Assembly: GCA_013360745.1 (NCBI GenBank)
Contig: JABWBA010000034.1
Coordinates: 1-32,707, forward strand
Direction: 5' to 3'
DNA length: 32,707 nt
Source: Chthonomonadales bacterium
GTDB lineage: Bacteria; Armatimonadota; Chthonomonadetes; Chthonomonadales; CAJBBX01
Positions 7,900 to 32,707 of this stretch are shown here, piece by piece. Position numbers and translations under genes: made by a program. The stretch's first letter is position 1; every line of letters starts with the position of its first letter. The notes under the pieces were generated by a model. The model was not told the DNA's origin, made no database searches, and saw only the letters and a list, made by a program, of their open reading frames with translations.

Positions 7900-9447
7900 A
7901 TGCTTCCCCCATTTCACAATGAACCGATCCTGACGTTCTCAGATCCCGCCGATCGGTCCTCCATGGAGGCCGCGATCAGCCTGGTCCGTTCGCAACTGAA
8001 CCGGGATTACCCACTCCGGATCGGCGATGAACAGCTGACGACGGGCGAATGGATCGTGAGTGTAAATCCAGCGGATCCCGCTGAGATCGTTGGACGTACC
8101 GCCAGCGCCAACGGGGACCTCGCCCGGCGTGCGATCGAGGCCGCGCATCGAGCTTTTCCCGCATGGTCCCATACCCCGCCGGAAAGCCGAGCGCGCTGCA
8201 TTCTTAAGGCCGCGCACATCATACGCCGTCGGCGCTTCGAGTTCGCAGCCTGGCTCGTGTTCGAGGCAAGTAAATCGTGGCAGGAAGCGTACGCCGATAT
8301 GGCGGAGGTGATCGACTTTCTGGAGTTCTACGGCAGGGAGATGATCCGCCTTGGCGGCATGCATCCGACGACGCCGTGGGCCGGGGAAGAGAATGGTGTC
8401 GTCTACATCCCGCTTGGCGTCGGCGTGGTGATCAGCCCCTGGAACTTCCCTCTGGCGATCATGGGCGGTATGACCGCCGCAGCGATCGTAACGGGCAATA
8501 CGGTCGTCGTCAAGCCCGCCTCCCAGGCGCCAATCGTCGCGGCCAAGTTCTGCGAGGTTCTTTCAGAGGCCGGAGTGCCGCCGGGGGTGGTTAACTTCCT
8601 GCCCGGTCCGGGTTCCCAGGTTGGCGATTTGCTGGTGGATGACGCGAAGACACGGTTCATCGCGTTTACGGGATCCAAGGAGGTTGGTGTCCGAATCTTC
8701 TCCCGTGCCGCTGTGGTACATCCGGGCCAGAAGTGGCTCAAGAGGACGATCCTCGAGATGGGCGGCAAGGATGCGATCATCGTCGATGAGACCGCCGATC
8801 TGGAATCCGCTGCGGATGGGATCGTCGCCTCGGCATTCGGCTTCCAGGGTCAGAAATGCTCCGCATGCTCCCGATTGATCGCGGTTCGGTCCATCGTCGA
8901 CCCGCTGGTCGCGATGGTCGCGGACCGAACCCGGGCGCTACGTATCGGCGATCCTGCCCAGTACGGGGTCGATCTCGGCGCCGTCATCGAGGCCGGGGCC
9001 CAACGCAAGATTCAGAACTACATCGCCGCAGGCCGCAACGAGGGGAACACCGTCCTCGCGGACTTGCCAGTGCCGGAGCGCGGATATTACGTCTCTCCGA
9101 CGATCATCGGAGGTGTCTCCGCCGATGCGACCATCGCCCAGGAGGAGATCTTCGGCCCTGTCCTGGCCGTGGTGCCGGCTGATACGTTCGACGACGCGCT
9201 GGCGATCGCCAACGGCACCGAATACGGACTTACGGGCGCCCTGTATTCGCAGGATCGGAGCCGGCTCGAGCAGGCGCGCCGCGAGTTCCATGTCGGCAAC
9301 CTCTACCTCAACCGTAAATGTACCGGAGCGCTCGTCGATGTCCAGCCATTCGGCGGATTCAACATGAGCGGCACGGACAGCAAAGCGGGCGGGCGTGACT
9401 ACCTACAGCTCTTCATGCAGGGGAAATCGATCACCGAGCGCTTCTAG
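7900..9447 (+). CDS. L-glutamate gamma-semialdehyde (1-pyrroline-5-carboxylate) dehydrogenase
   Basis: This 515-residue aldehyde dehydrogenase oxidises glutamate semialdehyde, in equilibrium with pyrroline-5-carboxylate, to glutamate with NAD+. It is the second step of proline breakdown and a late step of arginine/ornithine breakdown. It fits the stand-alone RocA type: PLGVGVVISPWNFPLAI (171-187), cofactor-site K205 in VVVKPAS, general-base E286 in LEMGGKDAIIVDETADL, and nucleophile C320 in GFQGQKCSACSR. NRKCTGALVDVQPFGGFNMS near the C-terminus is also typical. The start is ATG at 7900 with GAGGTG upstream. No proline dehydrogenase is nearby; the next gene, 6 bases downstream, is a Gfo/Idh/MocA oxidoreductase, an unusual partner. 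Identification is strong at subfamily level. Confidence 0.93.
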   Translation: MLPPFHNEPILTFSDPADRSSMEAAISLVRSQLNRDYPLRIGDEQLTTGEWIVSVNPADPAEIVGRTASANGDLARRAIEAAHRAFPAWSHTPPESRARCILKAAHIIRRRRFEFAAWLVFEASKSWQEAYADMAEVIDFLEFYGREMIRLGGMHPTTPWAGEENGVVYIPLGVGVVISPWNFPLAIMGGMTAAAIVTGNTVVVKPASQAPIVAAKFCEVLSEAGVPPGVVNFLPGPGSQVGDLLVDDAKTRFIAFTGSKEVGVRIFSRAAVVHPGQKWLKRTILEMGGKDAIIVDETADLESAADGIVASAFGFQGQKCSACSRLIAVRSIVDPLVAMVADRTRALRIGDPAQYGVDLGAVIEAGAQRKIQNYIAAGRNEGNTVLADLPVPERGYYVSPTIIGGVSADATIAQEEIFGPVLAVVPADTFDDALAIANGTEYGLTGALYSQDRSRLEQARREFHVGNLYLNRKCTGALVDVQPFGGFNMSGTDSKAGGRDYLQLFMQGKSITERF

Positions 9448-9453
9448 TTCGTA

Positions 9454-10431
9454 ATGAACGGTTTGCCCCTACGCGTCGGTGTCATCGGGTGCGGTGCGAT
9501 CGGACATCAGCACGCGGTGCGGTTGTCCCGGATATCGGGGGTGTCGGTCGCTGCGCTGAGTGATCCCTCAAGGGCGGCCATGGAACGTACCGCCTCCGAG
9601 TTGCCCGCAGCGCCCGAAACGATGTCGGAGGACTATCGCATTCCCCTCGGTCAGGGGCTGGATGCGGTATGTATCGCGAGTCCCGACGCGTACCACGTCG
9701 AGCAGGCCCTTGCGGCTCTGCGCGCGGGATGTCATGTGCTGTGCGAGAAGCCCCTGACGCCCTGGGTACAGGAGCTGGAAACCGTCCGGCGTGAGGTTGC
9801 GCGCTCCGGCCGGATCATGGCCATGACCTATCAGCGCCGCTACGATGGGGCGCACCGCGCCTTGCGGCGGGAGATACTATCCGGAACGTGGGGCGAAGTA
9901 ACCGGCATCGCGATCCACGGCGCCGAGGACTGGATCACGCCCAATGCAGGCACATGGCGGCACGATCCCGCGATCTGCCCGGGGGGCTTTTTCTACGACG
10001 CTTGCGGTCATCAAATCGATATGGTCCTGTGGGCCACGGACCTGCGCGGACAGTCGGTTCAGGCATGGACGGAGAACGCGGGCACTGCGGTGCCAATCCG
10101 CATTTGGGGCAACGCGATTCTGTCGAACGGGGCGCCGATGACCTTCCATTTCGTCGGCGACGCTACCGCGTGGAGGGAAACCATCCATATCCACTGCACC
10201 GATCGGGACTTCGCCATTCGGGACTACAAGCCGGAGGCCATCGTCGATGGCGCCTCCCAACCCTTCGCTCCCGGATCCGCACAGGCAGGCTCTGATGTCG
10301 AGTTCATTCAGATGATCCGAGAGGGCGCCCAGAATCCCGCGCCTGTAGAGGATGTCCGACGGGTGCTCCGGTTCACCGAAGCCGCGCTTCGGTCGGCAGC
10401 GACTGGAAACGTGACGGAGGCGCTGCCGTGA
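9454..10431 (+). CDS. Gfo/Idh/MocA family oxidoreductase
   Basis: This 325-residue NAD(P)-dependent oxidoreductase belongs to the glucose-fructose oxidoreductase / inositol dehydrogenase family. The Rossmann domain begins VGVIGCGAIGHQH (8-20). The hallmark EKP motif is E98-K99-P100 in CHVLCEKPLTP, and the C-terminal domain carries the D182...H186...D189 catalytic pattern in FFYDACGHQIDMVLW. Family substrates are mostly sugars, inositols or their amino derivatives; which one applies here cannot be read. The ATG at 9454 follows the stop of the P5C dehydrogenase gene by 6 bases without a clear Shine-Dalgarno, so it is probably co-transcribed and coupled. It ends 13 bases from the convergent Ste24-like gene. 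Confidence 0.92.
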   Translation: MNGLPLRVGVIGCGAIGHQHAVRLSRISGVSVAALSDPSRAAMERTASELPAAPETMSEDYRIPLGQGLDAVCIASPDAYHVEQALAALRAGCHVLCEKPLTPWVQELETVRREVARSGRIMAMTYQRRYDGAHRALRREILSGTWGEVTGIAIHGAEDWITPNAGTWRHDPAICPGGFFYDACGHQIDMVLWATDLRGQSVQAWTENAGTAVPIRIWGNAILSNGAPMTFHFVGDATAWRETIHIHCTDRDFAIRDYKPEAIVDGASQPFAPGSAQAGSDVEFIQMIREGAQNPAPVEDVRRVLRFTEAALRSAATGNVTEALP

Positions 10432-11711: not shown

Positions 11712-12995
11712 TCACTCCTTCGGGTCGCCCACGTTACCCTCAACCGACACGGAACCCTTCGAAGTGTTCTGAATGCGAACCGTACCCCGCACTACGTTGC
11801 CGGTAACAACGGCGCGTCGCACGCCCTCTCCGAGCTCCACCTGATTACGGTCCTGCTGGAACTCACATCCGCGAATCAGAACCGTACCGCTTCTGGCCTG
11901 GATCGCCGCCTTCCCCTCCTTCTTCGAATCCCACTGGACAAAGGTGCAATCGCTGAAACCGACGGTGCCCTTCCCCTCGATCACCGCGATCTGGTTGCAG
12001 GGCCCCCAGAACGCGGAGTTCACGAAGCGTACCGAGCCGCGGTTGGATCCGGTCACCCGAACCATGGTCGGATCGGGCCCCTTGAACGAGACGAATTCAC
12101 CGTTCGTGATCAAAATCCCATACGGCGCCGATTGATCGATCTGGATCGCCGTGAAGCAGTCATCCGCCCCGATTCCAAGGAAGTTCCCGTTGGTGGCGCC
12201 GGTTTTGGTCTCCATGAATCGATAGCCGATCTTATAGCCGAAGCAGAAGGTGTTGAGCACGTACTGCCAGTCCGTTCGTCCGAAAACGAACGCCTCGCCG
12301 TTCTCCATCTGCCACTGGAACAAAGCCGGCTTCATGCTCCACCACGGGTTGAAGTGGACGTTCTCCACTCGGCCGATATCGTAGATGCTGTCGATGTAGA
12401 CGCCCCGCCGGAGAGGCTGCCCCTGAACATTCCGGATGAGATGCCGTTCGTTATTGCTGGCATCGATACCGTTGTAGGGGTTCAGGATCTCAACATCGAG
12501 GACCGCAGGATTCTTGCCTCGCATCGCAATGGCCCACGGATAGGGCGCGGGCGCCTGCTCAGGATCTTGATCCGGATAGTAGAGCACAACGCCCTTCAGG
12601 GTCGAGTTCGTGTTGAGCGTGATCGCGGCAGGAGCGTCCTCGACGCCCCGATCGGCTGTGATCAGGAGCGTCGTGCCATCGTCGGTCGGCTTCGGGAGTC
12701 CCGCATCGCGGATGCCGTTGTGTGCCGGCACACTCTGCCACGCCCCCGCAAGGGTTGTCGCCGTCGGGATCGTCAGTCGCCCCTTGATCAGGTACCGACC
12801 GCGCGGCAAGTACACGGTTGCGCCCTCGGGGCCCGCTGCGTCGAGCGCCTTCTGGATTGCAGGTGTGTCGTCGGCCTTGCCGTCCCCGGTCGCGTTATAG
12901 GGCGCCTCCCGTACGTTGATCCAGTCGTTGGGCTGCGCGGCTGCGACACAGGCACACATAAGGCCTGCCATAATCAAACAGTACATCGAATACAC
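11712..12995 (-). CDS. Secreted pectate-lyase-fold (right-handed beta-helix) protein
   Basis: This 427-residue exported protein begins with a signal peptide of about 21 residues (ending CACVAAAQ). WINVREAPYNATGDGKADDT follows, the signature opening of the Pectate_lyase_3 / GH28-like N-terminal segment, then TPAIQKALDAAGPEGATVYLP and the rung-like repeats of a beta-helix to the C-terminus (GTVLIRGCEFQQDRNQVELG). Relatives cleave or bind pectin and other polysaccharides or occur as phage tailspike-like proteins; I cannot identify catalytic residues, so the activity is open. The start is GTG at 12995 with AAAGGAG exactly 7 bases upstream; the ATG at 12986 would be 16 bases from it. Upstream 12996-13105 holds nothing else recognisable. 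The next gene, a Ste24-like protease, starts 10 bases after the stop. Confidence 0.85.
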   Translation of the reverse strand: MYSMYCLIMAGLMCACVAAAQPNDWINVREAPYNATGDGKADDTPAIQKALDAAGPEGATVYLPRGRYLIKGRLTIPTATTLAGAWQSVPAHNGIRDAGLPKPTDDGTTLLITADRGVEDAPAAITLNTNSTLKGVVLYYPDQDPEQAPAPYPWAIAMRGKNPAVLDVEILNPYNGIDASNNERHLIRNVQGQPLRRGVYIDSIYDIGRVENVHFNPWWSMKPALFQWQMENGEAFVFGRTDWQYVLNTFCFGYKIGYRFMETKTGATNGNFLGIGADDCFTAIQIDQSAPYGILITNGEFVSFKGPDPTMVRVTGSNRGSVRFVNSAFWGPCNQIAVIEGKGTVGFSDCTFVQWDSKKEGKAAIQARSGTVLIRGCEFQQDRNQVELGEGVRRAVVTGNVVRGTVRIQNTSKGSVSVEGNVGDPKE

Positions 12996-17938: not shown

Positions 17939-20506
<2,568 letters not shown>

Positions 20507-20599: not shown

Positions 20600-21283
20600 C
20601 TACAGGCCGGATCCGGGAGACATAAAGGGCGGCTCCGCGGGCTGAGCACCCGCGGGGAAGAAGTCCCGGTAGAGCAGCCCGACGGACAGAGCAGCGACAG
20701 GTCCGGTCACCAGGAGGCCAATACCGCACGCAAGCATACCCGCGACGGCCAATAGAGCGATGACGAGATAGAATACGCCTGCCATCAGCCACTGAGATCG
20801 CAAGGCGTTCCAGCTCGTTCGCATTGCGACCACGCCATCACTGCGTTGATCCACGATCAAACACTGGGTAAACATCCAGAGACCCCCCGCGATAATCCCA
20901 GGGATGATACAGAGGAGCGTTCCAATAGACGTACCGATGCCCACCAGAATGCCCGCAACCACTAGAGGTCCTATGAACTCGTTGATGTCGAATAGATCAG
21001 CGACAGCGACCACACCGCCATCGATATGCTTCAACGCGGCTTTGTAGAAGCCGCCCATCAGGATCATCGCCGGCAGATTGCCGAGAAAGGCGCCGACCAC
21101 CGGCACCATTCCGATGATCATAGCGGCAACCAGAGAGACTACCCCGAACACCAGGGCGATCAAGATCCATGGGCCTACCTGCTGTTGGAAGAGCGCAAAC
21201 GCCTGGTTGATGACATCAAAACGGATCATCGGCGGGGGTGACGAATACGAACCGTCCGGTTGACTGTCCAGAGGCATGGCCAT
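20600..21283 (-). CDS. Polytopic membrane protein of unknown function
   Basis: This 227-residue protein has a short polar N-terminus and about five or six transmembrane helices (near 38-60, 63-82, 104-125, 125-145, 164-187 and 188-206). The pattern of paired helices around an S-W-N-A-L-R-S-Q-W stretch (157-165) resembles the loosely defined DUF975/glycerophosphodiester-phosphodiesterase-membrane-domain group of integral membrane proteins, but I would not name a function. The C-terminus is Pro/Gly-rich. The ATG at 21283 has AGGAG 8 bases upstream. It is divergent from the sialidase-fold gene and convergent with the pyrophosphatase gene. Confidence 0.82.
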   Translation of the reverse strand: MAMPLDSQPDGSYSSPPPMIRFDVINQAFALFQQQVGPWILIALVFGVVSLVAAMIIGMVPVVGAFLGNLPAMILMGGFYKAALKHIDGGVVAVADLFDINEFIGPLVVAGILVGIGTSIGTLLCIIPGIIAGGLWMFTQCLIVDQRSDGVVAMRTSWNALRSQWLMAGVFYLVIALLAVAGMLACGIGLLVTGPVAALSVGLLYRDFFPAGAQPAEPPFMSPGSGL

Positions 21284-21514: not shown

Positions 21515-22747
21515 ATGCTCTCGATACTACCCCTGGCCACTGCGATCGCCAGCGCGGCGGCCGCCGGTCCGTTGCGCACCGATCGCCTCATCTTCCCGCT
21601 CAATCCGCAGCACAACCATGCCAGCTGCATCGTTGCTCTGCCACACGGAGACCTGCTGGCGTGTTGGTACCGGGGATCCGGGGAACGAACGGCTGACGAC
21701 GTTGCCATTCTAGGCTCGAGGCTCCGCAAGGGTCGTACGCGCTGGACCGAGCCCTTTGTCCTCGCCAATACCCCCGGCTTCCCCGACTGCAATCCCTGTA
21801 TGATTGTGGACAGGAAGTCCGTCCTGTGGTTGTTCTGGCCGGTCATCCTGAACAACGAGTGGGAGAGCGCTCTCCTTCGCTATCAAACTAGCTCGGACTA
21901 TCAGCGGGGCGCTGGCGCACCCCGTTGGACCGGCGGCGGTGTGGTACTGCTGAAACCGGGGCAGGAGTTTACCGATGGCGTCCAGGCGAATCTCGCAAAG
22001 TCATGGCAGCCTTTCGCCGCCAAGGCCTCGCCCGCAGATCAGGCGAAGCTCAAGGAATACCTCACGGACCGCACACGGGCCGCAGGCGACAAACTCCGTA
22101 TGCGCCTGGGATGGATGCCCCGGCCGCGCCCTGTGCAGTTCAACGATGGTCGGCTGTTCCTGCCTCTTTACTCCGATCTGTTCGACTTTTCCTTGATCGC
22201 GTTCAGCGATGACGACGGCCGGACGTGGCGTGTTAGCGCGCCCATCGTCGGCCCGGGGAATGTCCAGCCCAGCCTCGCGCGACGAAAGGACGGTACGCTC
22301 GTAGCGTTCTTCCGAGACAATGGTCCGCCGCCGCAGCGTGTGCTCATCAGTGAGTCGATCGACCACGGCCTGACCTGGACACGGCCAGAGGACACCGTCC
22401 TGCCGGATCCAGGCGCCGGAGTCGAGATCGTCGTCCTGCGGAGCGGCAAATGGGTCCTGATCAACAACGATACCGAATCCGAAAGGGATAGCCTTGCGCT
22501 CACGGTCTCGGACGATGAAGGCCGGACGTGGTCGCGCAAGTGCCATCTGGAACACGATGTCGACCCGGGCGAGCATGGCTCCTACTCCTACCCTTCGATC
22601 ATCCAGGCATCGGACGGCCTGATCCACATCACGTACACGTACACGCCGAACGGGGCTACCAGAACGAAGCTCGGACCCGGCAAGTCGATCAAGCACGTTA
22701 CCATCAATGAGGCATGGCTGGCCGCGAATGCGGCCCCGCTTCGATGA
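21515..22747 (+). CDS. Secreted sialidase-fold (BNR/Asp-box) protein
   Basis: This 410-residue protein starts with a signal peptide (MLSILPLATAIASAAAA, cleavage near residue 17-18). It carries three Asp-box repeats of the S-x-D-x-G-x-T-W type: SDDDGRTW (231-238), SIDHGLTW (281-288) and SDDEGRTW (332-339). LACWYRGSGERTADDVAI (48-65) occupies the place of the arginine and acidic residues near the active-site entrance of six-bladed sialidases. Family members include exo-alpha-sialidases and other glycosidases, so sialic acid specificity is not assured. The reading frame is open back to 21260, but I start at 21515 because GGAGG lies 6 bases upstream and the signal peptide begins there. Its stop overlaps the next start (ATGA), coupling it to the D-threonine-aldolase-like gene. 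Confidence 0.82.
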   Translation: MLSILPLATAIASAAAAGPLRTDRLIFPLNPQHNHASCIVALPHGDLLACWYRGSGERTADDVAILGSRLRKGRTRWTEPFVLANTPGFPDCNPCMIVDRKSVLWLFWPVILNNEWESALLRYQTSSDYQRGAGAPRWTGGGVVLLKPGQEFTDGVQANLAKSWQPFAAKASPADQAKLKEYLTDRTRAAGDKLRMRLGWMPRPRPVQFNDGRLFLPLYSDLFDFSLIAFSDDDGRTWRVSAPIVGPGNVQPSLARRKDGTLVAFFRDNGPPPQRVLISESIDHGLTWTRPEDTVLPDPGAGVEIVVLRSGKWVLINNDTESERDSLALTVSDDEGRTWSRKCHLEHDVDPGEHGSYSYPSIIQASDGLIHITYTYTPNGATRTKLGPGKSIKHVTINEAWLAANAAPLR

Positions 22748-23856
22748 AGCCGAACACATCGGATATTCCAGACGGTCTCAGGGACGTCGATACACCCGCC
22801 CTGATCTGCGATCTCGCTCGCCTGCGTACGAACATCTCCGGCATGGCGGCCGCGGCAGCCGCCGGCGGTAAGGCGCTTCGCCCTCATGTCAAGACCCACA
22901 AATGCCCGAACATCGCCCGGATGCAGATCGAGGCCGGGGCTTGCGGGATAACGGTCGCCAAACTCGGCGAAGCCGAGACCTTCGCGGACGAGGGTTTCGA
23001 GGACATTCTGATCGCCAACACCATTGTCGGCGCGGCCAAACTTCAGCGACTGATCGCGCTCTCCGGGCGCGTCCGGATCGCGGCGGCCGTCGATAGCGTC
23101 GACGTGCTGCAGGGTATGATCGACGCCGCCCGACAGGCCAACGTTCGGCTCGAGGCAATGATCGAAGTGGACAGCGGCCACGGGCGCTCCGGCATCAGAC
23201 ACAGCACAACAGCCGCGGCTCTGGCCGAGCATGCGATCCGATCCGGGTCGATCACCATCCGGGGGATTCTGACCCACGAAGGCCATGCCTACCGAACAGC
23301 GCCCGCGAGGATGGCCGAAGTGGCGACACGGGTAAGCATACGGATGGCCGAGATCGCTCAGGCGGTATCTTCCGTAACCGGCGCCTGTCCGGTGATCAGC
23401 GTCGGTTCTACTCCAACGGCACAAGCCATGCTGGGACGACCGGAGCCGACGGAGGTTCGACCCGGAAACTACGTCTTTTACGACGCATCGCAGTGTGCCC
23501 TTGGCGCATCGCCCGCGGATTGCGCGCTCACCGTGCTCGCAACGGTGATCGCTCGACCGTCAGGCACGGAAGCGCTCATCGATGCGGGGGTCAAGGCTCT
23601 GGCGAGTGACCGGCATCCGCTCTACGGACACGGGTTCGTTCTTAACGATCCGAGCGCGTTTCTGGACTGGTGCAGCGAGGAACACGGGCATCTTCACCTT
23701 GGCTTATCGACGTTCCGACCAGGGATCGGCGATCGCGTCCGGATCGTCCCAGCCCATGCATGCACCTGCGCCAATATGCATCCGCAGATCATGATCGCAG
23801 ACGGAGATCAGATTGTCGATGTCTGGCGTCTCGCGGCTCGCGACCGCCTGACGTAA
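22744..23856 (+). CDS. PLP enzyme of the D-threonine aldolase / D-serine dehydratase family
   Basis: This 370-residue fold-type III PLP enzyme probably cleaves or dehydrates a D-beta-hydroxy-amino acid. The N-terminus DVDTPALICDL is typical. The Schiff-base lysine is K50 in LRPHVKTHKCPNIA. MIEVDSGHGRSGI (139-151) and ISVGSTPTA (218-226) line the PLP pocket. The C-terminal metal pair is H338 and C340 in VPAHACTCANMHP, which in the eukaryotic D-serine dehydratase DSD binds zinc; in D-threonine aldolase the metal is often Mn. I cannot choose between the two activities. It overlaps the sialidase-fold gene by 4 bases and ends 9 bases from the convergent PfkB kinase. Together with the nearby M55 D-aminopeptidase this points to use of D-amino-acid-containing material. 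Confidence 0.9.
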   Translation: MKPNTSDIPDGLRDVDTPALICDLARLRTNISGMAAAAAAGGKALRPHVKTHKCPNIARMQIEAGACGITVAKLGEAETFADEGFEDILIANTIVGAAKLQRLIALSGRVRIAAAVDSVDVLQGMIDAARQANVRLEAMIEVDSGHGRSGIRHSTTAAALAEHAIRSGSITIRGILTHEGHAYRTAPARMAEVATRVSIRMAEIAQAVSSVTGACPVISVGSTPTAQAMLGRPEPTEVRPGNYVFYDASQCALGASPADCALTVLATVIARPSGTEALIDAGVKALASDRHPLYGHGFVLNDPSAFLDWCSEEHGHLHLGLSTFRPGIGDRVRIVPAHACTCANMHPQIMIADGDQIVDVWRLAARDRLT

Positions 23857-23865
23857 CGCCAGCGC

Positions 23866-24816
23866 TTACGAACCGCGACCGTCCAACGGCGTGGATTCCA
23901 TGAAATCGAGGGTGTCCGCGTAGGTACGCACACCCGTTGTCGCCCCGACGGCGCTGACGCAGAGAGCCCCAACGGCGTTCGCAAAGCGAGCGCTCCGTTC
24001 GATATCCCAACCGCGAAACGCTCCCAGCAGGAAGCCTGCAGCCCAGGCATCCCCGGATCCGGTCCCATCCACCGCTGTTACCCGATAGATCGGAACCTGC
24101 ACGCTGCCCGACGGATCCGACACATAGCAACCGTCCTCGCCCAGCTTCAGACAAACCGTGCCAACGCCCTCATCATGGAGGAAGTGGGCGATGTCGGCCG
24201 CTTCGTGCAGTCCCGTCAACTGCCGCGCCTCAGCCAGGCTGGGCATGATGTAGTCCAGTTTCGCCAGACAGGGCCTCAGGACCCCCAGCCAGCGACCGGT
24301 TGCGTCCCATACCGTATCGAGCGATGTCGCCATGCCGTTCGTTCGCGCTCGGTCCAGGACCCGGGCCATCGGCTCGCCGTCCAGGGCAGGCATAACCAGA
24401 GCCCCGGCCATGTGCAGGATTCGGGCGCCGGCTAGGACATCCCAGTCCACGTCCTCCTCGCGATAGCAGGCATTTCCACCCATATTGTGGAGGAACGTCC
24501 GTTCCCCTTCACCGTTGACCAGCACCATGCTTGCCGAAGTCAGCGTCTCCGACGAACGACGGAGTCCTCTGATATCGACGGATTCGCGCTCCAGCGTCTG
24601 CACAACAAAGTCGCCCAGACCGTCTCGGCCCACCTGGCCGAGGACGGTGGTAGAGACTCCTAATCGAACGAGATCGATGCCCGTATTGCTCGCGCAGCCT
24701 CCGATATGGAGCGAGATCTCATCTACCAGGCCAAGGCGCCCGACAGGGGGCAATGTATCAATCGGTCGGCCGACCAGATCGGCCACGAGGATACCCAGAC
24801 ATGCGATATCCGCCAA
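23866..24816 (-). CDS. PfkB-family carbohydrate kinase
   Basis: This ribokinase-like kinase phosphorylates a sugar or nucleoside with ATP. From the preferred TTG start it is 316 residues. Motif 1 is IGGCASNTGIDLVRLG (about 38-53) and motif 2 is DGTGSGDAWAAGFLLGAF (250-267), with catalytic base D256. GQVGRDGLGD and LKLGEDGCYV are further family landmarks. I chose TTG at 24816 because AAGGA lies 9 bases upstream and the next residues (ADIACLGILVADLV) are where the family starts; a TTG at 24855 would add 13 residues and lies 1 base after the M55 stop. It is the last gene of the GH38, M55, PfkB operon. The substrate is unknown; a released hexose or amino sugar is a reasonable guess. Confidence 0.9.
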   Translation of the reverse strand: MADIACLGILVADLVGRPIDTLPPVGRLGLVDEISLHIGGCASNTGIDLVRLGVSTTVLGQVGRDGLGDFVVQTLERESVDIRGLRRSSETLTSASMVLVNGEGERTFLHNMGGNACYREEDVDWDVLAGARILHMAGALVMPALDGEPMARVLDRARTNGMATSLDTVWDATGRWLGVLRPCLAKLDYIMPSLAEARQLTGLHEAADIAHFLHDEGVGTVCLKLGEDGCYVSDPSGSVQVPIYRVTAVDGTGSGDAWAAGFLLGAFRGWDIERSARFANAVGALCVSAVGATTGVRTYADTLDFMESTPLDGRGS

Positions 24817-24856
24817 TCCACACCGTCCTTTCGTTTCTATCGCTTGGTTCGACAAG

Positions 24857-25684
24857 CTATGACGGCTTCCACAGAGTCCGCCATGCTGCCCAGAACGTGT
24901 CGCCGCTGGTCTGGACCGCTCGTTCCTCGACGCGTTCTACACCTTCGAGTTCTGCAAGGCGGCTCGCTCGATCCGGGGATGCGAGATCGACGCGTATCAA
25001 TACCGGATCGGTGTAGGTGACGACCGGAGGGCACGATGCCCTATCCTCCACCGCTGCACGAAACCGCTCTTCCACCAACCTGCATGCGTCCGCAGGTGCG
25101 AGCATTCGCGCTCCGTACCGCCCCATGCCACGTTTGACCACCGCTTGCACGATGGGCGCTCCCAGGAAATCCTCCAACTCGTCGCACGCAGCCATATCCC
25201 CTGCAATTGCGATCGCCGGAACGCCAAAGGAGCCTGCAATCGAGGCAAGAATCGCCGATTCACCGATGATCCTGCCGTTGACGCTGACGGCATGCCAACC
25301 GTCGGCATCGATCGTATGCGAGAGAACCGCGTGGGCCATGCCGGCCCGGGCATGCGCTCCGACAAACGCTATCGCCGTACACTCTCCCGTCTCGAGGGGT
25401 TCGACGTAAGAGCCCCAGCGCCAGCCCCGAACGTATTCCGCACCCGGTTCCAGTTGATCCGGGATCCAGTTCATGAACGGCTTGGCGCCGCGATAGGCCC
25501 CGCCGTGGCCATCCTGGACGATCACCGGCCTGGCGCCTCCGGCGAGACAACCCCGAACGGCCGCGGAAACCTCAGCGGTATAGAGGCGCCGACCTTCATC
25601 GTACAGGGGCGAGGAACCACCGGTGTGTTCCCAGCTCTGGATCCCGCAAATACCCTCCATGTCGGCATAGATCAATAGGCCCAT
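24857..25684 (-). CDS. M55 family D-aminopeptidase (DppA-like)
   Basis: This 275-residue zinc peptidase removes N-terminal D-amino acids such as D-Ala from short peptides, and its best-known role is recycling cell-wall peptides. The metal ligands of Bacillus subtilis DppA are recognisable: D8 and E10 in YADMEGICG, H60 in QDGHGGAYRGA, H111 in FVGAHARAGM and E142 in IIGESAILA. The first three have the same numbering as DppA. The C-terminal 60 residues (VTYTDPVLIRVDLASPDRA) are the usual substrate-facing part. The ATG at 25684 has GGGAG 7 bases upstream and lies 16 bases after the GH38 stop; the kinase follows. M55 enzymes assemble as decamers in the cytosol. With the D-hydroxyamino-acid lyase gene close by, peptide D-residues could be fed to central metabolism. 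Confidence 0.93.
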   Translation of the reverse strand: MGLLIYADMEGICGIQSWEHTGGSSPLYDEGRRLYTAEVSAAVRGCLAGGARPVIVQDGHGGAYRGAKPFMNWIPDQLEPGAEYVRGWRWGSYVEPLETGECTAIAFVGAHARAGMAHAVLSHTIDADGWHAVSVNGRIIGESAILASIAGSFGVPAIAIAGDMAACDELEDFLGAPIVQAVVKRGMGRYGARMLAPADACRLVEERFRAAVEDRASCPPVVTYTDPVLIRVDLASPDRASRLAELEGVERVEERAVQTSGDTFWAAWRTLWKPS

Positions 25685-25700
25685 TCAACATCTCCCATAT

Positions 25701-28319
25701 TTAGGCCCCCTTGTGGGGGTTGATTGGTAGCAGCAGGGCTCGCGAAAGCTCGAACTCCAGCGTCATGATCTGCTTCCCACGGACGTCTACCCTCGCGGCA
25801 TCGCCGCTGTTCCATGCCTCGAGCGGCTCTTCGTTCAGGTTCACCGCACGCCAACGCTCCGCTCCCGGAAGACTCACCTCCACGTGGCGGGCGGGCTCGT
25901 CCGTGGTGTTATAGAAGCGAACGATCACGGTGTCGCGATCCTCAGCCCGTTTGATGGCGCTCAACACCAGGCGCGTGTCGTTGATCATCAGATACGAACG
26001 CCGCTCGGGAGCCTCGGGAACGGACGGAACCTGAACCCCGATCAGAGGGGATTCGAACTGATGCGCCTGCCTCCATGCCAGGCTCTCCTGCCAACCAGCG
26101 CAATGCCGGACTACAGCCAACCGGAAGTGGTGGGCGCCGGGGCACTGGGCGTCGGGAGTCGGCATGCCCGGCCCGTCGCCGCGTCCGCTTAGCTGCCCCA
26201 CGCAGCGTAAGAGGGTAATCGCGACGGCGCTACCCGCCTCATTCGCGCCCTCGATATATTCCAGCTCGTACAGGCCGGGACAAACTAGGGTGACTCCGCC
26301 CTCAGCGTCACGGTACGGTGCGTCGACCCAGAGCGTCATGGGCGATGTCGGAGCCGCGCCAGCGGCGATCGCCGCCGCGTCTCGGGGCCGGGTGATGGCA
26401 TCGAACGGCGCTCCGGCTGTCGGTGGTCCAGCGCAATCGAAGAGCGCCCTCAGGCGATGATCCCGGGCACGGTTGTCCACCACGATATCGTACTCCCAGC
26501 GCGCCACATCCGCCCATTCGGTGCGCTGTATCTGAACGGGCAACGACACCAGCCGGGCCGATCGTGCCGCCGGGCTTGAGGTCTCAGGGATTTGCAGCGC
26601 GGCATCGGCGACGACGCTCCGGCGAACGGCGGTACTCTCCACGGCAATATCCCGCTGCAGATCAATGGTCTGCCGGATGCGGGAATCCCTCAGCGGCGCC
26701 CGATGCAGGTATTCGTCTCCGACCTCGCCCATATCCTCAAAAAGGAAGGTGTCCTCGGGCAGCGGATGAGGCCACGCCCCATCCGTCGCCTCGGGCATCC
26801 GCCCAGCGGCCTCAACGCGATAGCGCGCATAGCCGCACGGAGGGACGTTGTGGGCGACAAACTCGATGTCCATCTGCTGCACCCACTGGTCCAGGGGCAG
26901 TTCATGCGGATTCAGAACGGTATCCAGAACGATCTCATTGGAGCGGACTCCAAAGGGTACCTCGGAGCCATCATCGGAAAGGATACGGATGCCGCGGAGG
27001 ATGCGCTCTTGCTCCTGAACGGCGTTGCCGCGCGCCGGTGAGCCCAGAGGAAAGGCCAGCGTAACGACAACCGGGTCGGTCCGAGCCCAGTTCAGGGTAT
27101 TCCAGACAAGCAGATCGCAGGGAGGCGCAATGGCGCCCAGGGTCCGATCCCGACCGGTCAGGGCATCCAGCGCCCGGGACTCCAGAACAGCGCATACCTG
27201 ACCGACGCGTTCGAAGCGGGGCATCATCTCGCGATGCACCTGGTCGATACTGCAGCCGCAGATCGAGTCATGCGGATGGTTCTGCATCAGGAGCTTCCAC
27301 GCGTACCGCAGTTCATCGGTCGGATAGGGCGCACCGTCGATCGCCGCAAACGCGGCCAGTCGTTCGGCACGTCCCTCAAGGGCAATCTGGGCTGCGGCGT
27401 TGGCTTGCTTCAGGTAGGTTCGTGTTGAGAGGACGCCGGCGAGGCACGATCCGGCATGGTCCTCCCGCAGTTCGCCGCGCACCGTCTCGATAGCCGGATC
27501 GGCGGATGCTTCGCGCAGGCCTTCGACGTACGCTTCCAGTGTACTGTGGACGATATTCATACCCGCGCCGGACGCCTTGAAGGCCGCATCAACCTCCGCC
27601 GTCACACGTCCGGCATACGGTTGGGCCTCCAGATGATCCACGCCGTTCATGAGCAGCAGGTGGTTCAGGGCCGATCGGGACGCCATGCGCTGGGCCAGCT
27701 CCGTGATAAAGGCGCCAGCGGCAGCGGAATCAGGCGGCAGGTACTGGGCGTTGTTGTACCAGTAGGCCATCAGCGACGCGATGACGCGTGAGCCGTCGGG
27801 GCTCTCCCAGTGGAACTCCAGCGTCCGGTCGCCGGTTATGCGCCTCCCGCGGCCGACGATGGCATTATCGATACCGAAGCCGCGAAAGATTTGCGGCATC
27901 TGCGAGATGTTGCCGAACTGATCCGGCAGATAGCCGATGGCCAGACACGCCCCGTATCCCCTGGCAATGCGCGAACCGATGAGCAGACTCCGAATCGTAC
28001 TCTCACCGCTGACCAGGTAGCTGTCGTTGAGCTGATACCATGGTCCCACCCCAAGTCGACCGCAGCGTATTAGCCGTTCTAGATCGGCTCGACGATGCGG
28101 GCGGACCTCGAGGTAATCCTCGAGTACGATGGTCTGAGCATCCAGGCTGAAATGCTGGAACTGCGGATCCGAGTCGAGGATATCGATGACATGGTCGATC
28201 AGGTCGACGAGACGGAGACGAAACTCCTCAAAGGTCAGATACCATTCGCGGTCCCAGTGCGTATGAGACACTAGATGCAATGTCAGCGTCGTGTTCGTTC
28301 TGTCGGACAAGGTTGACAC
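25701..28319 (-). CDS. GH38 glycosidase, mannosylglycerate-hydrolase-like type
   Basis: This 872-residue GH38 enzyme is of the branch that starts LHLVSHTHWDREWYLTFEEF (13-32), like E. coli MngB, and is clearly different from the other GH38 in this window. Zinc ligands are H21 and D23; the nucleophile is D99 in LNDSYLVSGES; GYLPDQFGNISQMPQI (129-144) is the family motif; H350-D351 in MQNHPHDSICGCSIDQVH completes the site. The C-terminal beta domains extend to the end. No signal peptide is seen, so it is probably cytoplasmic. The start is GTG at 28319, but its GAGG is immediately adjacent; a TTG at 28310 would be 9 bases from the same GAGG and may be the true start. First gene of the operon with M55 and PfkB. 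It may act on a phosphorylated or glycerate-linked mannoside; specificity is not readable. Confidence 0.92.
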   Translation of the reverse strand: MSTLSDRTNTTLTLHLVSHTHWDREWYLTFEEFRLRLVDLIDHVIDILDSDPQFQHFSLDAQTIVLEDYLEVRPHRRADLERLIRCGRLGVGPWYQLNDSYLVSGESTIRSLLIGSRIARGYGACLAIGYLPDQFGNISQMPQIFRGFGIDNAIVGRGRRITGDRTLEFHWESPDGSRVIASLMAYWYNNAQYLPPDSAAAGAFITELAQRMASRSALNHLLLMNGVDHLEAQPYAGRVTAEVDAAFKASGAGMNIVHSTLEAYVEGLREASADPAIETVRGELREDHAGSCLAGVLSTRTYLKQANAAAQIALEGRAERLAAFAAIDGAPYPTDELRYAWKLLMQNHPHDSICGCSIDQVHREMMPRFERVGQVCAVLESRALDALTGRDRTLGAIAPPCDLLVWNTLNWARTDPVVVTLAFPLGSPARGNAVQEQERILRGIRILSDDGSEVPFGVRSNEIVLDTVLNPHELPLDQWVQQMDIEFVAHNVPPCGYARYRVEAAGRMPEATDGAWPHPLPEDTFLFEDMGEVGDEYLHRAPLRDSRIRQTIDLQRDIAVESTAVRRSVVADAALQIPETSSPAARSARLVSLPVQIQRTEWADVARWEYDIVVDNRARDHRLRALFDCAGPPTAGAPFDAITRPRDAAAIAAGAAPTSPMTLWVDAPYRDAEGGVTLVCPGLYELEYIEGANEAGSAVAITLLRCVGQLSGRGDGPGMPTPDAQCPGAHHFRLAVVRHCAGWQESLAWRQAHQFESPLIGVQVPSVPEAPERRSYLMINDTRLVLSAIKRAEDRDTVIVRFYNTTDEPARHVEVSLPGAERWRAVNLNEEPLEAWNSGDAARVDVRGKQIMTLEFELSRALLLPINPHKGA

Positions 28320-28403: not shown

Positions 28404-28464
28404 GCATGCAGGAGGCCCCGCTCCGTGTCAATATTCGATTCGGCCGCCCCTGAGTCCTGCATGC
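28404..28464. repeat. Ten-base inverted repeat between GH38 and hsp20
   Basis: GCATGCAGGA (28404-28413) is repeated in inverse orientation as TCCTGCATGC (28455-28464), 51 bases apart, about five helical turns. It lies in the 186-base gap between divergent genes and is either a two-site operator or a long hairpin in the hsp20 leader. No CIRCE-like element and no convincing sigma-70 promoter were found in 28320-28505. A short GGCTC-T-GAGCC repeat is also present at 28359-28369. Confidence 0.45.
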
Positions 28465-28505
28465 GGGCGCCGACCGGACCATATCCAGGACGAGGTTTTG
28501 CGCAC

Positions 28506-28973
28506 ATGCAACAATCGAGCGATCGTGACCTGATGATGGCGCGTCGTCTGGAACACGAGATGCAGCGGATGGCAGATGATGCCTTACGGGCTTTCCTGAT
28601 GGGCGATCCGCCGCCGGACCGATTCTGGCAACCCCATGTTGATGTCTATGAAACCGACGATGCCGTACTCGTCAAAATGGAACTGGCCGGTGTGGATAGT
28701 TCGAAACTCCGGGTAAACCTGGCCTCGGACGGCCGGTCCCTGGCGGTCTCCGGCGAACGTACCGAGGAAGAGCCGGAGCGAACAGCGCGAACCCGATGCC
28801 ATCGGCTTGAGATTTACTTTGGGCCGTTCGAGTGCCGGATTGCTCTACCGTCAGGCGCACGGTATCTTCGCGATGCGATATCCGCTCGGTATGTGAACGG
28901 CATACTCGCCATCCACCTGCCGAAGCGGCCAGTCCTTACCATCGCTGTTCAGGATCAGTCAGAACCGAAGTGA
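28506..28973 (+). CDS. Small heat shock protein, Hsp20/alpha-crystallin family
   Basis: This 155-residue ATP-independent chaperone holds unfolding proteins. The N-terminal region of about 40 residues ([20 protein letters not shown]) is helical. The alpha-crystallin domain at about 42-145 runs from [20 protein letters not shown] through [15 protein letters not shown] to [12 protein letters not shown]. The C-terminal V-L-T-I may stand in for the I-x-I anchor. The frame is open from 28425, but I start at 28506 because GAGG lies 10 bases upstream and the added residues look non-coding. Its TGA overlaps the lon GTG start (GTGA). This couples a holding chaperone to an ATP-dependent protease, as in stress operons. 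Confidence 0.9.
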
Positions 28974-31378
28974 GTACAGACGATATCGCCATCGGCGACC
29001 AGGATGAGCACCTTCTCGGTCTCAATGTAACCCGGATCCCTGTGCCAGAGGAGCTCAGCATCCTTCCCCTGCGGGAGTATGTGATGTTCCCCGTCCTCGT
29101 GGCGCCGCTGAACGTCGGGCGGGAAAGCTCGATGCAGATGGTCAACGAGACCGTCGTCGGCGGCAACCGCATCGTAGGATGCATCACGGTCCGCGATCCA
29201 CAGATCGAGCACCCGGGCGTCGAAGACCTGCATCGTACTGGGGTCGCGGTAATCATCCGTATGATGATGCAGGCTCCCGACGGTATCCGGTTGATTGTGC
29301 AGGGGATATCCCGTTTCTCCATCGAGGAGGTTCTTCAGTCCGAGCCCTACCTTCGCGTTCGCATCCGCCGCCTTGAAGAGACAGAACCTAGCGCAGATGA
29401 TGAACCGGAGATCGAAGCTGCACGGCGCAGTATCGTAGCGTTGTTTGGGCAGATCGTCACGCTATCTTCCGATATCCCCGATGAAGTCCAGGGTCTAACC
29501 AACAACGTCGAAGATCCTGGCGCACTAACCGATCTTGTCACCGCGCACATGCCCCGCCTCTCGATCAAGGAGCGTCAGAGCATACTGGACACGCTCCCCA
29601 TTAAGGAGCGAATGCAAGCCCTGCTCACGATCCTGGCCCGTGAGGTTCAGGTTCTGGAGCTCGGCAGCAAACTCCACTCCGACGTGGCCTCCGAACTCGG
29701 GCGGGCGCAACGCGAGTATTACCTTCGCGAACAGCTCAAGGCGATCCACAAGGAGCTTGGTGAGAGCGACGAGCGGACCAAGGAGATCAGCGAGCTCCGC
29801 TCCAAGATCGAGGCGGCACAGATGCCGGAAGAGGCCATGCGCGAGGCCGATCGTGAGTTGGAGCGCCTGTCACGAATGCCGACGGCGGCGCCGGAATACA
29901 CCGTCGCTCGAACGTACGTGGACTGGTTGGTTGCGCTGCCCTGGTCCACATCGACGCCGGACAACCTCGACATCGGCGAAGCGATGGCGATACTCGAAGC
30001 GGACCATTACGGCCTTGAGAAGGTCAAAGAGCGAATCATCGAGTTTCTGGCGGTCCGCAAGTTTCGTGCGGAAGGCGAACTGCGACAGCCGATCCTCTGC
30101 TTCGCTGGTCCGCCAGGCGTCGGGAAGACCAGCCTGGGCAAATCGATCGCACGTGCTCTCGAACGCAACTTCGTCCGGATATCACTCGGGGGTATTCGCG
30201 ATGAGGCCGAGATCCGCGGCCATCGCAGGACCTATGTTGGGGCCCTTCCCGGTCAGATCATTCAAGGGCTCCGACGCGCTGGATCCAACAATCCGATCTT
30301 CATGCTCGACGAAATCGACAAGCTCACATCCGATTTCAGGGGCGATCCCTCGTCCGCGCTGCTGGAAGCCCTCGACCCCGAACAGAACCACGCCTTCCGG
30401 GATCACTATCTTGAGGTGCCTTTCGACCTCAGCCGCGTTCTCTTCATCACCACCGCGAACATGCTCGAGACCATACTACCGCCCCTCCGAGATAGGATGG
30501 AGGTTATCGAGATCGCGGGCTATACCGAAGAAGAGAAGGTTGAGATCGCCCTCCGATACCTGATCCCGAAACAGATTAACGAGCACGGCATCAAGGGCCG
30601 GCTGACCATTACGCCCGACGCAGTCCTGGCGATGGTTCGCGGTCATACGCGCGAAGCCGGCGTTCGAAATCTGGAGCGAACCGTCGCGAGCGTTTGTCGC
30701 AAGGCAACCAGGGCCATCGCCGAGGGTAAGCGAAAGAGGATGAAGATCGGCCCGAAACAGGTTCGCGAGTACCTCGGCGCCCCCCGATATGAAGCGGAGG
30801 AGCTCGACGAACGGGTTTCAACGCCAGGCGTTGCTACCGGACTCGTCTGGACTCCGGTCGGCGGGGATATCGTCTTCATCGAAGCCACGGCAATGGCCGT
30901 GCCGGACGGCCGTTCCCCGCAGCTCCTCATAACCGGCCAGCTTGGCGACGTGATGCAGGAATCCGCCCAGGCGGCCCTATCCTATGTGCGAGTCCACGCG
31001 GCGGACCTTGGGGCTCCGGCTGATTTCTACGCCAAACACGATATCCATATCCACGTTCCCGCCGGTGCAACCCCAAAAGACGGCCCTTCCGCCGGCATCA
31101 CTATGTGCACGGCTCTTGCCAGTCTATTCACAGGCCGGCCTGTGCAGCCTCGCCTCGCCATGACAGGGGAGATAACTCTGAGCGGACGCGTTCTGCCCGT
31201 GGGCGGCATCAAGGAGAAGGTCCTGGCTGCACATCGGGCCGGTGTTCGAACTGTGATTCTGCCTGAGCGCAATGCGAAGGATGTTCAGGAGGATGTCCCT
31301 GAGGCCGTGCTGTCCGAGTTAACCATACGGACGGTCAAGGACATCGGCGAGGTCTTGCGCCTCGCTTTAGTTCCCTGA
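28970..31378 (+). CDS. lon: ATP-dependent Lon protease
   Basis: This 802-residue LonA-type protease is the normal length for the family. It has the N-terminal substrate-binding LAN domain ([20 protein letters not shown], about 32-51), a coiled-coil middle ([17 protein letters not shown]), and an AAA+ domain with Walker [10 protein letters not shown] (380-388) and Walker B FMLDEID (444-450). The C-terminal protease domain has catalytic S707 in [11 protein letters not shown] and K750 in [14 protein letters not shown], 43 residues apart as in E. coli Lon. The start is GTG at 28970, overlapping the hsp20 stop by 4 bases; longer frames back to 28832 would run inside hsp20. It degrades misfolded and regulatory proteins in the cytosol. 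The convergent pntB gene ends 51 bases downstream, and that gap shows no clear terminator. Confidence 0.96.
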
Positions 31379-31429
31379 ATGGTCGATCCCGCCGGCAGTA
31401 AGCGCGCGCCCCAGGCCGCGGCGCTGACG

Positions 31430-32707
31430 CTACCGGTTCTCCGCCGCCATCGCTTTGACCATGTCACCAACATAGGCCTTAGCGTCGCCAAATAGCATGA
31501 GCGTTTTGTCCAGGTAATAGAGCTCATTCTCAATACCGGCGAATCCCGCGCTCATACTCCTCTTGATCACCATCACGGTCGCAGCCTTATCAACATCGAT
31601 GATCGGCATACCATAGATGGGGCTGGATCGGTCTGTTCGCGCAGCCGGATTCGTCACATCGTTCGCCCCGATGACCAGGGCGACGTCGGTATGAGGCAGC
31701 TCCGAGTTGATATCGTCCATCTCGAACAGGCTGTCGTACGGGATATCCGCCTCGGCCAACAACACATTCATATGTCCGGGCATCCGTCCGGCGACGGGGT
31801 GGATACCGAACTTCACATCGATGCCCCGCTTCATCAGCTGATCGTACAGCTCACGTACGCGGTGTTGCGCCTGTGCAACGGCCATACCGTATCCAGGAAC
31901 GATGACCACCGATTGGGCAGCCGTCAGGATCTCGGCCGCCTCTTCCGGCTGAACCGATCGGATCGGGCGCTCTTCGGCGGCCTCAAGAGCCTTAGGGGTT
32001 ACGGCGCCGAAGGCTCCGAACAACACATTGGCGAAGGAACGGTTCATGGCCTTGCACATGATGATGGACAGGATGAAACCGGATGAGCCGTCCAACGCTC
32101 CCGCGATGATCAGGAGTTTATTATTGAGAACGAAACCCATGGCGGAGGCGCTGAGCCCCGCATAGGAGTTCAGGAGGGAGATCACGGTCGGCATATCCGC
32201 TCCGCCGATCGGGATGATCAGGAGCGTGCCAAAGGCCAGAGCCAGCAGGATAAGGATGGGGAACAGAGCAGTCTGGTTCGGCACGATGTTGAGATAGATG
32301 CCGATGGCGATGGCGATAGCCAGTAATCCGAGGTTAACGTAGTTCTGTCCGCGATAGGTGATCGGCCTCGAGGGCAGCAGGCCCTGCAGTTTTCCGAAAG
32401 CCATGAGGCTGCCGGTGAAAGTCAAATAGCCCAGGATCGTCTCGAAGGCGAGGACGCCCATGACGAAATGCGTCAGCCGTGCCGGTTCCTCCGCCACCCA
32501 GAGGTAGTACTTGGCGGTGCCGACCAGTCCGACAGCCAGACCGCCGAAGCAGTGAGACAGCGCGGTTCTCTGGGGCACCGCCGTCATGGGCATCAATACG
32601 GCGATCGGAATCCCGATGGCGGTCCCAACGAGGAAGGTCACGATGATCCAGTGGAAGGCATGGATCTCAGGCAGATGCAGCGTCCCGGCGATGGCCAGCA
32701 GCATGCC
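31430..32707 (-). CDS. pntB: NAD(P) transhydrogenase subunit beta (PntB), 5' end missing
   Basis: About 425 C-terminal residues are visible; the frame is open to the right edge, and full-length PntB is roughly 460-480 residues, so only the first helix or so is missing. The protein couples hydride transfer from NADH to NADP+ with proton inflow. The membrane half shows many helices, including GLAVGLVGTAKYYLW and ITYRGQNYVNLGLLAIAIAIG. The NADP(H)-binding domain III has VIVPGYGMAVAQAQHRVREL, HPVAGRMPGHMNVLLAEA, VIGANDVTNPAAR and MPIIDVDKAATVMVIKRSM, all classic PntB. An alpha subunit gene would be expected upstream, beyond the window. The gene ends convergent with lon. Confidence 0.97.
   Translation of the reverse strand, partial: GMLLAIAGTLHLPEIHAFHWIIVTFLVGTAIGIPIAVLMPMTAVPQRTALSHCFGGLAVGLVGTAKYYLWVAEEPARLTHFVMGVLAFETILGYLTFTGSLMAFGKLQGLLPSRPITYRGQNYVNLGLLAIAIAIGIYLNIVPNQTALFPILILLALAFGTLLIIPIGGADMPTVISLLNSYAGLSASAMGFVLNNKLLIIAGALDGSSGFILSIIMCKAMNRSFANVLFGAFGAVTPKALEAAEERPIRSVQPEEAAEILTAAQSVVIVPGYGMAVAQAQHRVRELYDQLMKRGIDVKFGIHPVAGRMPGHMNVLLAEADIPYDSLFEMDDINSELPHTDVALVIGANDVTNPAARTDRSSPIYGMPIIDVDKAATVMVIKRSMSAGFAGIENELYYLDKTLMLFGDAKAYVGDMVKAMAAENR

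Follow-up and report, generated by a model that had tools for sequence, protein, structure and literature searches.

A convergent island of candidate scavenging genes in an uncultured family of Chthonomonadales

The stretch of DNA analyzed here (the window, 32,707 nucleotides) comprises bases 1-32707 of one contig of a Chthonomonadales genome of 3.3 Mb in 127 contigs that is 97% complete, and its subject is an island of five complete genes for candidate scavenging enzymes at positions 21515-28319. Within the Armatimonadota, the genome falls in an uncultured family of the order Chthonomonadales, and its closest relatives by the M55 gene are named as a Chthonomonadales bacterium, a Chthonomonas calidirosea metagenome-assembled genome, and an uncultured Chthonomonas sp. 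Two of the genes lie on the plus strand. The first encodes a BNR_2 sialidase-fold protein of 410 amino acids (21515-22747; Pfam BNR_2, 170.9 bits) with a short, signal-like N terminus and a GGAGG motif ahead of its ATG. The second encodes a fold III pyridoxal phosphate (PLP) enzyme of 370 amino acids (22744-23856; Pfam Ala_racemase_N and D-ser_dehydrat), whose ATG at 22744 overlaps the BNR stop codon at 22745-22747 as ATGA. On the minus strand, the gene for a predicted GH38 alpha-mannosidase (25701-28319) is separated by 16 bases from that for an M55 (DppA-like) metallo-aminopeptidase homologue of 275 amino acids (24857-25684; Pfam Peptidase_M55, 221 bits), followed by a PfkB-family sugar kinase gene (24855-23866). 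The two sets converge with 9 bases (23857-23865) between the stop codons of the PLP enzyme and the kinase, as described in a first-pass annotation made from the sequence alone. That annotation also saw no transporter, and no transporter family was matched among the window proteins that we scanned. Scans of this region for promoters, terminators, and Rfam families returned either nothing or counts close to those expected by chance.

The island is shared with two genomes of a sister genus (G007 and G010), in which the BNR, PLP enzyme, M55, and GH38 genes are arranged and oriented as in the window and are framed by the same border genes. In the window, the left border consists of a gene for an 855-amino-acid protein, read from its sequence as H+-pyrophosphatase-like (17939-20506, plus strand), and a membrane gene with similarity to BPSS1780 (20600-21283, minus strand). 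The right border (28425-32704) consists of HSP20 and Lon genes on the plus strand and PNTB on the minus strand, all named from profile matches. Left-border clusters 11 and 12 recur at loci L057 and L073, and right-border clusters 13, 28, and 29 recur at L055 and L056. The sister island spans two contigs in both genomes, its continuity being taken from the contig ends. Genes for the BNR protein, a c6 propeller, an AspT-type permease, and the PLP enzyme run in one direction; those for a YprB exonuclease, a pectate-lyase-2 (PL2)-like protein (only partly visible in G010), M55, mannonate dehydratase (ManD), and GH38 run in the other. The convergent junction in G007 is 6 bases, with YprB where the window has PfkB, and PfkB is missing from the sister island. 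Because two sister-genus genomes keep order, orientation, and borders, the conserved convergent arrangement exceeds chance. The window island could have been reduced or the sister island expanded, and we favor loss, because the BNR-permease and GH38-ManD pairs are found in further genera. In four genomes (G003, G004, G007, and G010), a ManD gene scoring near the equivalog level adjoins GH38 or is flanked by GH38 and M55, and ManD had no match in the window genome as assembled. Separately, a YprB-like RNase_H_2 exonuclease, an odd partner for sugar genes, was seen repeatedly beside PfkB or M55 in relatives within the family (L055:4003-4755, L056:11125-12102, L058:4296-4640, L065:7486-8274, and L070:6531-7295).

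The GH38 protein contains the N-terminal, middle, and C-terminal GH38 domains of Pfam and matches the PDB entries 3lvt, 5kbp, and 2wyh. It retains H21, D23, D133, D228, H350, and D351 (alignment A4) at the positions of H13, D15, D125, D232, H351, and D352 of SpGH38, which are zinc ligands, nucleophile, and acid/base positions in that enzyme (PMC2815779). By sequence it lies nearer the alpha-mannosidases SpGH38/EfGH38 than MngB, to which the first-pass annotation had likened it; the MngB profile NF007331 gave 385.4 bits versus an equivalog cutoff of 1138, and MngB identity was rejected. SpGH38 is an alpha-1,3-mannosidase (PMC2815779), and the specificity of the window enzyme would be carried over from these relatives. 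The SpGH38 operon of Streptococcus pyogenes, which serves N-glycan degradation (PMC2815779), thus shares with the window a GH38 of the same bacterial group with retained metal and catalytic residues. However, the streptococcal operon includes GH84 together with sugar transporters and regulators, whereas the partners of the window GH38 are M55 and PfkB, with no linked transporter. Mannosylglycerate catabolism in Escherichia coli resembles the locus only in the GH38 family. The substrate of MngB is phosphorylated (PMC2815779), and the phosphotransferase system protein MngA was not found in the window. One variation was observed beside the zinc ligands, where the G007 GH38 (L055:8338-10905) reads SHTHCDREW and every other aligned member reads SHTHWDREW. 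Window positions 1168-3588 encode another GH38 (806 amino acids), which belongs to a different subfamily; downstream on the same strand are genes for a URO-D-like protein, a D-2-hydroxyacid dehydrogenase, and a PIG-L deacetylase.

The kinase scored 188 bits against Pfam PfkB, over the cutoff, and carries the C-terminal GxGD motif as DGTGSGD. Its closest solved structure in a phmmer search of the PDB is E. coli YdjH (3h49/3in1), and it exceeded no NCBIfam equivalog cutoff, so that a substrate is not assignable from these profiles. The M55 protein far exceeds the Pfam cutoff of 25 bits, and in an alignment with Bacillus subtilis DppA (1hi9; alignment A1) it retains D8, E10, H60, H111, and E142, corresponding to D8, E10, H60, H104, and E133 of DppA, which we take to be metal ligands, together with H123 at the active-site histidine H115. 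The dipeptide ABC transporter of the DppA system, in contrast, was not seen at the window locus, and identity with the DppA D-aminopeptidase equivalog was not supported (NF058634, 112.6 bits versus a cutoff of 430).

The PLP enzyme had been labeled a D-hydroxyamino-acid lyase, and its metal site corrected the label to a dehydratase type. The site reads PAHAC, i.e., His-x-Cys, as it does in five relatives. Comparable sites are PNHAC in 3wqc (D-threo-3-hydroxyaspartate dehydratase) and 3llx, whereas the D-threonine aldolases 4v15 and 7dib have PSHVD and the hydroxyaspartate aldolase BhcC (6qkb) has PGHCD, both of the His-x-Asp form; the same contrast is drawn for D-serine dehydratase in a study of the aldolase (PMC4401734). 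The base of that aldolase, AxDTA His193 (PMC4401734), has no aligned histidine in the window enzyme. Identity with D-threonine aldolase or BhcC was rejected on both grounds, and because of the His-x-Cys site we predict a dehydratase of the D-serine/D-threo-3-hydroxyaspartate type rather than an aldolase. Fold III and the His-x-Cys site are shared with 3wqc and chicken D-serine dehydratase (3anu), although phmmer ranks the D-threonine aldolase 4v15, with its His-x-Asp site, slightly above these two. In order-level relatives (L088, L089, L188, and L190), a PLP dehydratase-type gene adjoins a prolyl-tRNA synthetase gene, as read from the L088 sequence.

An AlphaFold model of the BNR protein (predicted local distance difference test score of 82.5) retrieved sialidases in Foldseek (E value of 6.5e-16, template modeling score of ~0.6). 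The family has an invariant HNHxSC motif and lacks the RIP arginine, with no invariant arginine before blade 1 (alignment A3). GH33 membership, which calls for a propeller with a RIP arginine and an arginine triad, was rejected from fold and alignment: the propeller is present, but the RIP arginine is missing. The beta-propeller is held in common with GH33 sialidases and with propeller lyases such as 7esl, but the window protein is only 10-18% identical to them and has HNHxSC in place of the RIP arginine, which makes sialidase activity unlikely. A search for papers on sialidase-fold BNR proteins with glucuronate lyases found nothing.

Genes for carriers recur beside the BNR gene in relatives. 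It adjoins a major facilitator superfamily (MFS) carrier in seven genomes (G003, G004, G017, G018, G020, G023, and G026), and the top NCBIfam profile of the G004 copy, the one scanned, is the D-galactonate transporter subfamily, at a score under the cutoff. In G009 the neighbor is an AspT-type permease, and at the near-identical G047 and G033 loci an oligogalacturonate-lyase-like gene and TctABC lie just downstream of the BNR gene. As an observation on the family as a whole, BNR_2 proteins with invariant HNHxSC and RDNGPPPQR are paired with MFS, AspT, or TctABC carriers across Chthonomonadia (L175, L178, L179, L180, L181, L086, L087, L066, L185, and L094). Tripartite tricarboxylate transporter (TTT) carriers are able to import uronate oligosaccharides, in a locus with a YdjH-like KdgK (PMC13390454). 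Together with the carriers beside BNR in relatives, this suggests that the probable product of the BNR protein is an acidic sugar. In the window genome, at its 97% completeness, the AspT permease had no match, in a search run without a positive control, and the MFS carrier gave only partial matches of 25-33%. Since BNR pairs with a permease in relatives, the transporter gap looks like a derived condition, the BNR-linked permease having been lost in the window lineage. With regard to a polysaccharide utilization locus, which would have a linked carrier and joint regulation, the window locus shows no carrier, and the carriers stand beside BNR in relatives.

These neighbors invite the explanation that the island was one pathway for an acidic glycan, a plant or algal polymer of mannose and uronate, degenerate in the window genome but complete in the sister genus, which has the BNR protein and c6 propeller, the permease, the PL2-like protein, ManD, and GH38. 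The PL2-like, ManD, AspT, and c6 genes indeed lie within one island in G007 and G010, and the TctABC and lyase-like neighbors in G047 and G033, as well as the import of uronate oligosaccharides by TTT carriers, fit this idea. The alginate/uronate loci with a TTT carrier and YdjH-like KdgK (PMC13390454) resemble ours through TctABC beside the BNR relatives and through the PfkB protein, nearest to YdjH, but the window locus is without a lyase or carrier. A KDPG (2-keto-3-deoxy-6-phosphogluconate) aldolase encoded in the window genome also speaks for it; however, a route through mannonate and 2-keto-3-deoxygluconate was rejected there, as no ManD-type sugar-acid dehydratase was found. The pathway would also not account for M55, the PLP enzyme, or YprB, and the two gene sets are unlinked in most relatives. 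We consider it improbable.

Both GH38 and M55 are present in 9 of the 61 surveyed genomes and are neighbors in 7 of these 9, from four genera. The pair outlasts its surroundings, because in G006, G009, and G011 its flanks differ and haem genes lie beside it (haem-synthesis genes in G009 and G011, as read from the sequences). The GH38 and M55 trees are congruent, grouping the window with G007 and G010 and then with G006, G009, and G011, with values of 97-100 on the shared branches in the Shimodaira-Hasegawa-like approximate likelihood ratio test (SH-aLRT). On the evidence of these trees, GH38-M55 is a vertically inherited pair within the family. GH38 adjoins PfkB in G005 and G008, and M55 adjoins PfkB in G001, so that the GH38/M55/PfkB triad looks like a remnant of a larger operon; the simplest common origin would be a GH38-ManD-M55-PfkB-YprB operon with later losses. 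BNR and the PLP enzyme are linked in 3 of the 18 genomes having both.

The locus could instead be a metabolic hot spot, in which uncoupled catabolic genes accumulate between stretches of core genes and the GH38-M55 adjacency reflects vertical inheritance only. PfkB, YprB, PL2, and ManD are swapped in and out at the site, the neighborhood is not conserved across families, GH38, M55, and PfkB show no co-occurrence across genomes, and the genome of the cultured Chthonomonas, C. calidirosea, is reported to be disorganized, with pathway genes scattered and non-operonic (PMC4959169). The same disorganization makes linkage less expected, and any linkage that persists more telling. Against a hot spot, the GH38-M55 adjacency outlasts changing flanks across 50-60% protein identity, the 5-16-base gaps and the ATGA overlap favor cotranscription, and BNR is found paired with a permease repeatedly across many genera. 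We regard a hot spot as unlikely, although by no means far-fetched.

The first-pass annotation had proposed a salvage system acting on a cell-wall or glycopeptide substrate and had named conservation of the neighborhood across phyla as one of its tests. An alignment scan of genome contigs for M55 gave 80 loci in Armatimonadota, Sumerlaeota, Actinomycetota, Chloroflexota, and others. GH38, PfkB, BNR, and PLP genes were found within ~8 kb of M55 only at the family's 7 loci and at none of the 73 outside it, in a single-sequence tblastn search (E value of ≤1e-8) that could miss very distant homologues. A conserved five-gene system across phyla was thus rejected. Operonic M55 neighbors elsewhere are mixed: three enolase-superfamily proteins (two scoring as galactonate dehydratase), three RmlD-like proteins, three uracil-DNA glycosylases, and one L-rhamnose isomerase. 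No recurrent peptide transporter or peptidase was among the families listed.

In a single peptidoglycan or glycopeptide salvage system, M55 and the PLP enzyme would degrade D-residue peptides while both glycosidases free sugars. The family names D-aminopeptidase and D-hydroxyamino-acid lyase suggest such a role, both gene sets share one island in three genomes, and BNR and the PLP enzyme are jointly present or jointly absent in all 12 genomes of the family. Yet neither a peptide transporter nor a peptidoglycan enzyme occurs in the island or in those of relatives, no peptidoglycan substrate is known for alpha-mannosidase, the partners of BNR carry carboxylates or sugars, and the linkage breaks down outside the family. 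AnmK, a peptidoglycan-recycling enzyme, is encoded in the genome on another contig. With AnmK unlinked and no recurrent peptide gene by M55 in other lineages, the peptidoglycan reading was rejected, and we hold it to be highly improbable; the positive evidence for cell-wall salvage is limited to family names, and it is not supported. What survives of the proposed salvage system is a set of breakdown enzymes, a single island that the sister genus also has, and the GH38-M55 pair, without the wider system or the cell-wall substrate. Among the titles and abstracts listed for M55 D-aminopeptidases, GH38 in Armatimonadetes, and YdjH, none describes this gene set.

We tentatively favor, as quite possible, two scavenging transcription units, independent of each other and occupying a common ancestral site, specific to this uncultured family. 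In its favor we count the common borders in G007 and G010, the GH38-M55 linkage with its congruent trees, the PfkB adjacencies, the carriers beside BNR, the placement of ManD by GH38, the His-x-Cys site, and the presence of sugar-acid dehydratases and L-rhamnose isomerase, with no recurrent peptide gene, among M55 neighbors elsewhere. In the minus-strand unit, a cytosolic GH38 would cut alpha-mannosyl units off imported glycosides, PfkB would phosphorylate a sugar or keto-sugar-acid product, and M55, the constant partner of GH38 in the family, may split off a small amide or peptide portion from the imported glycoside or from another compound taken up with it. In the plus-strand unit, an exported sialidase-fold enzyme would free an acidic sugar, which ancestrally may have entered through an adjacent carboxylate-type permease, and the metal-dependent PLP dehydratase would yield a 2-oxo acid by deaminating a D-3-hydroxyamino acid, either D-serine or D-hydroxyaspartate. 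The window island would be a reduced form that has lost the permease and mannonate dehydratase genes, as well as those for the pectate-lyase-like protein and the exonuclease, with PfkB replacing the last two.

Several points weigh against the two-unit explanation. Of the 12 genomes in the family, 8 have both BNR and the PLP enzyme and 4 have neither, and this matching presence could mean joint action. Co-occurrence of GH38, M55, and PfkB in the 61 genomes is about that expected by chance, with odds ratios near 1 in counts that use score thresholds of our own choosing and ignore kinship; the three are tied only by physical linkage inside one family, and the GH38-M55 linkage could be due to descent alone. 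The sugar-acid link of the relatives cannot run through ManD here, and the substrates of the island enzymes are assigned by prediction. By the same counts, M55-PLP and M55-BNR are associated across the 61 genomes and PLP-BNR within the order, associations that phylogeny may explain. A further idea, which we offer as a long shot, is that the GH38-M55 pair marks this M55 subfamily as an amidase or deacylase that trims an imported alpha-mannoside at its aglycone or N-acyl moiety; it would act before or after GH38 and not as a wall-peptide D-aminopeptidase.

Elsewhere in the window, a pectate-lyase/rhamnogalacturonase-like protein (PF12708) is encoded at 11712-12971, ~9 kb from the island, and positions 7900-10431 encode an aldehyde dehydrogenase and a GFO/IDH/MocA oxidoreductase.

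All of the island enzymes come from known families, the neighborhood is lineage specific, and the biology is mostly ordinary. Tight convergent gene sets need not constitute a system. The five-gene guess gives way to two facts open to testing, the vertical retention of GH38-M55 as a pair in one Armatimonadota family and the pairing of a sialidase-fold family with carboxylate or sugar carriers, and the most interesting residue of the finding is the link of alpha-mannoside cleavage with M55.

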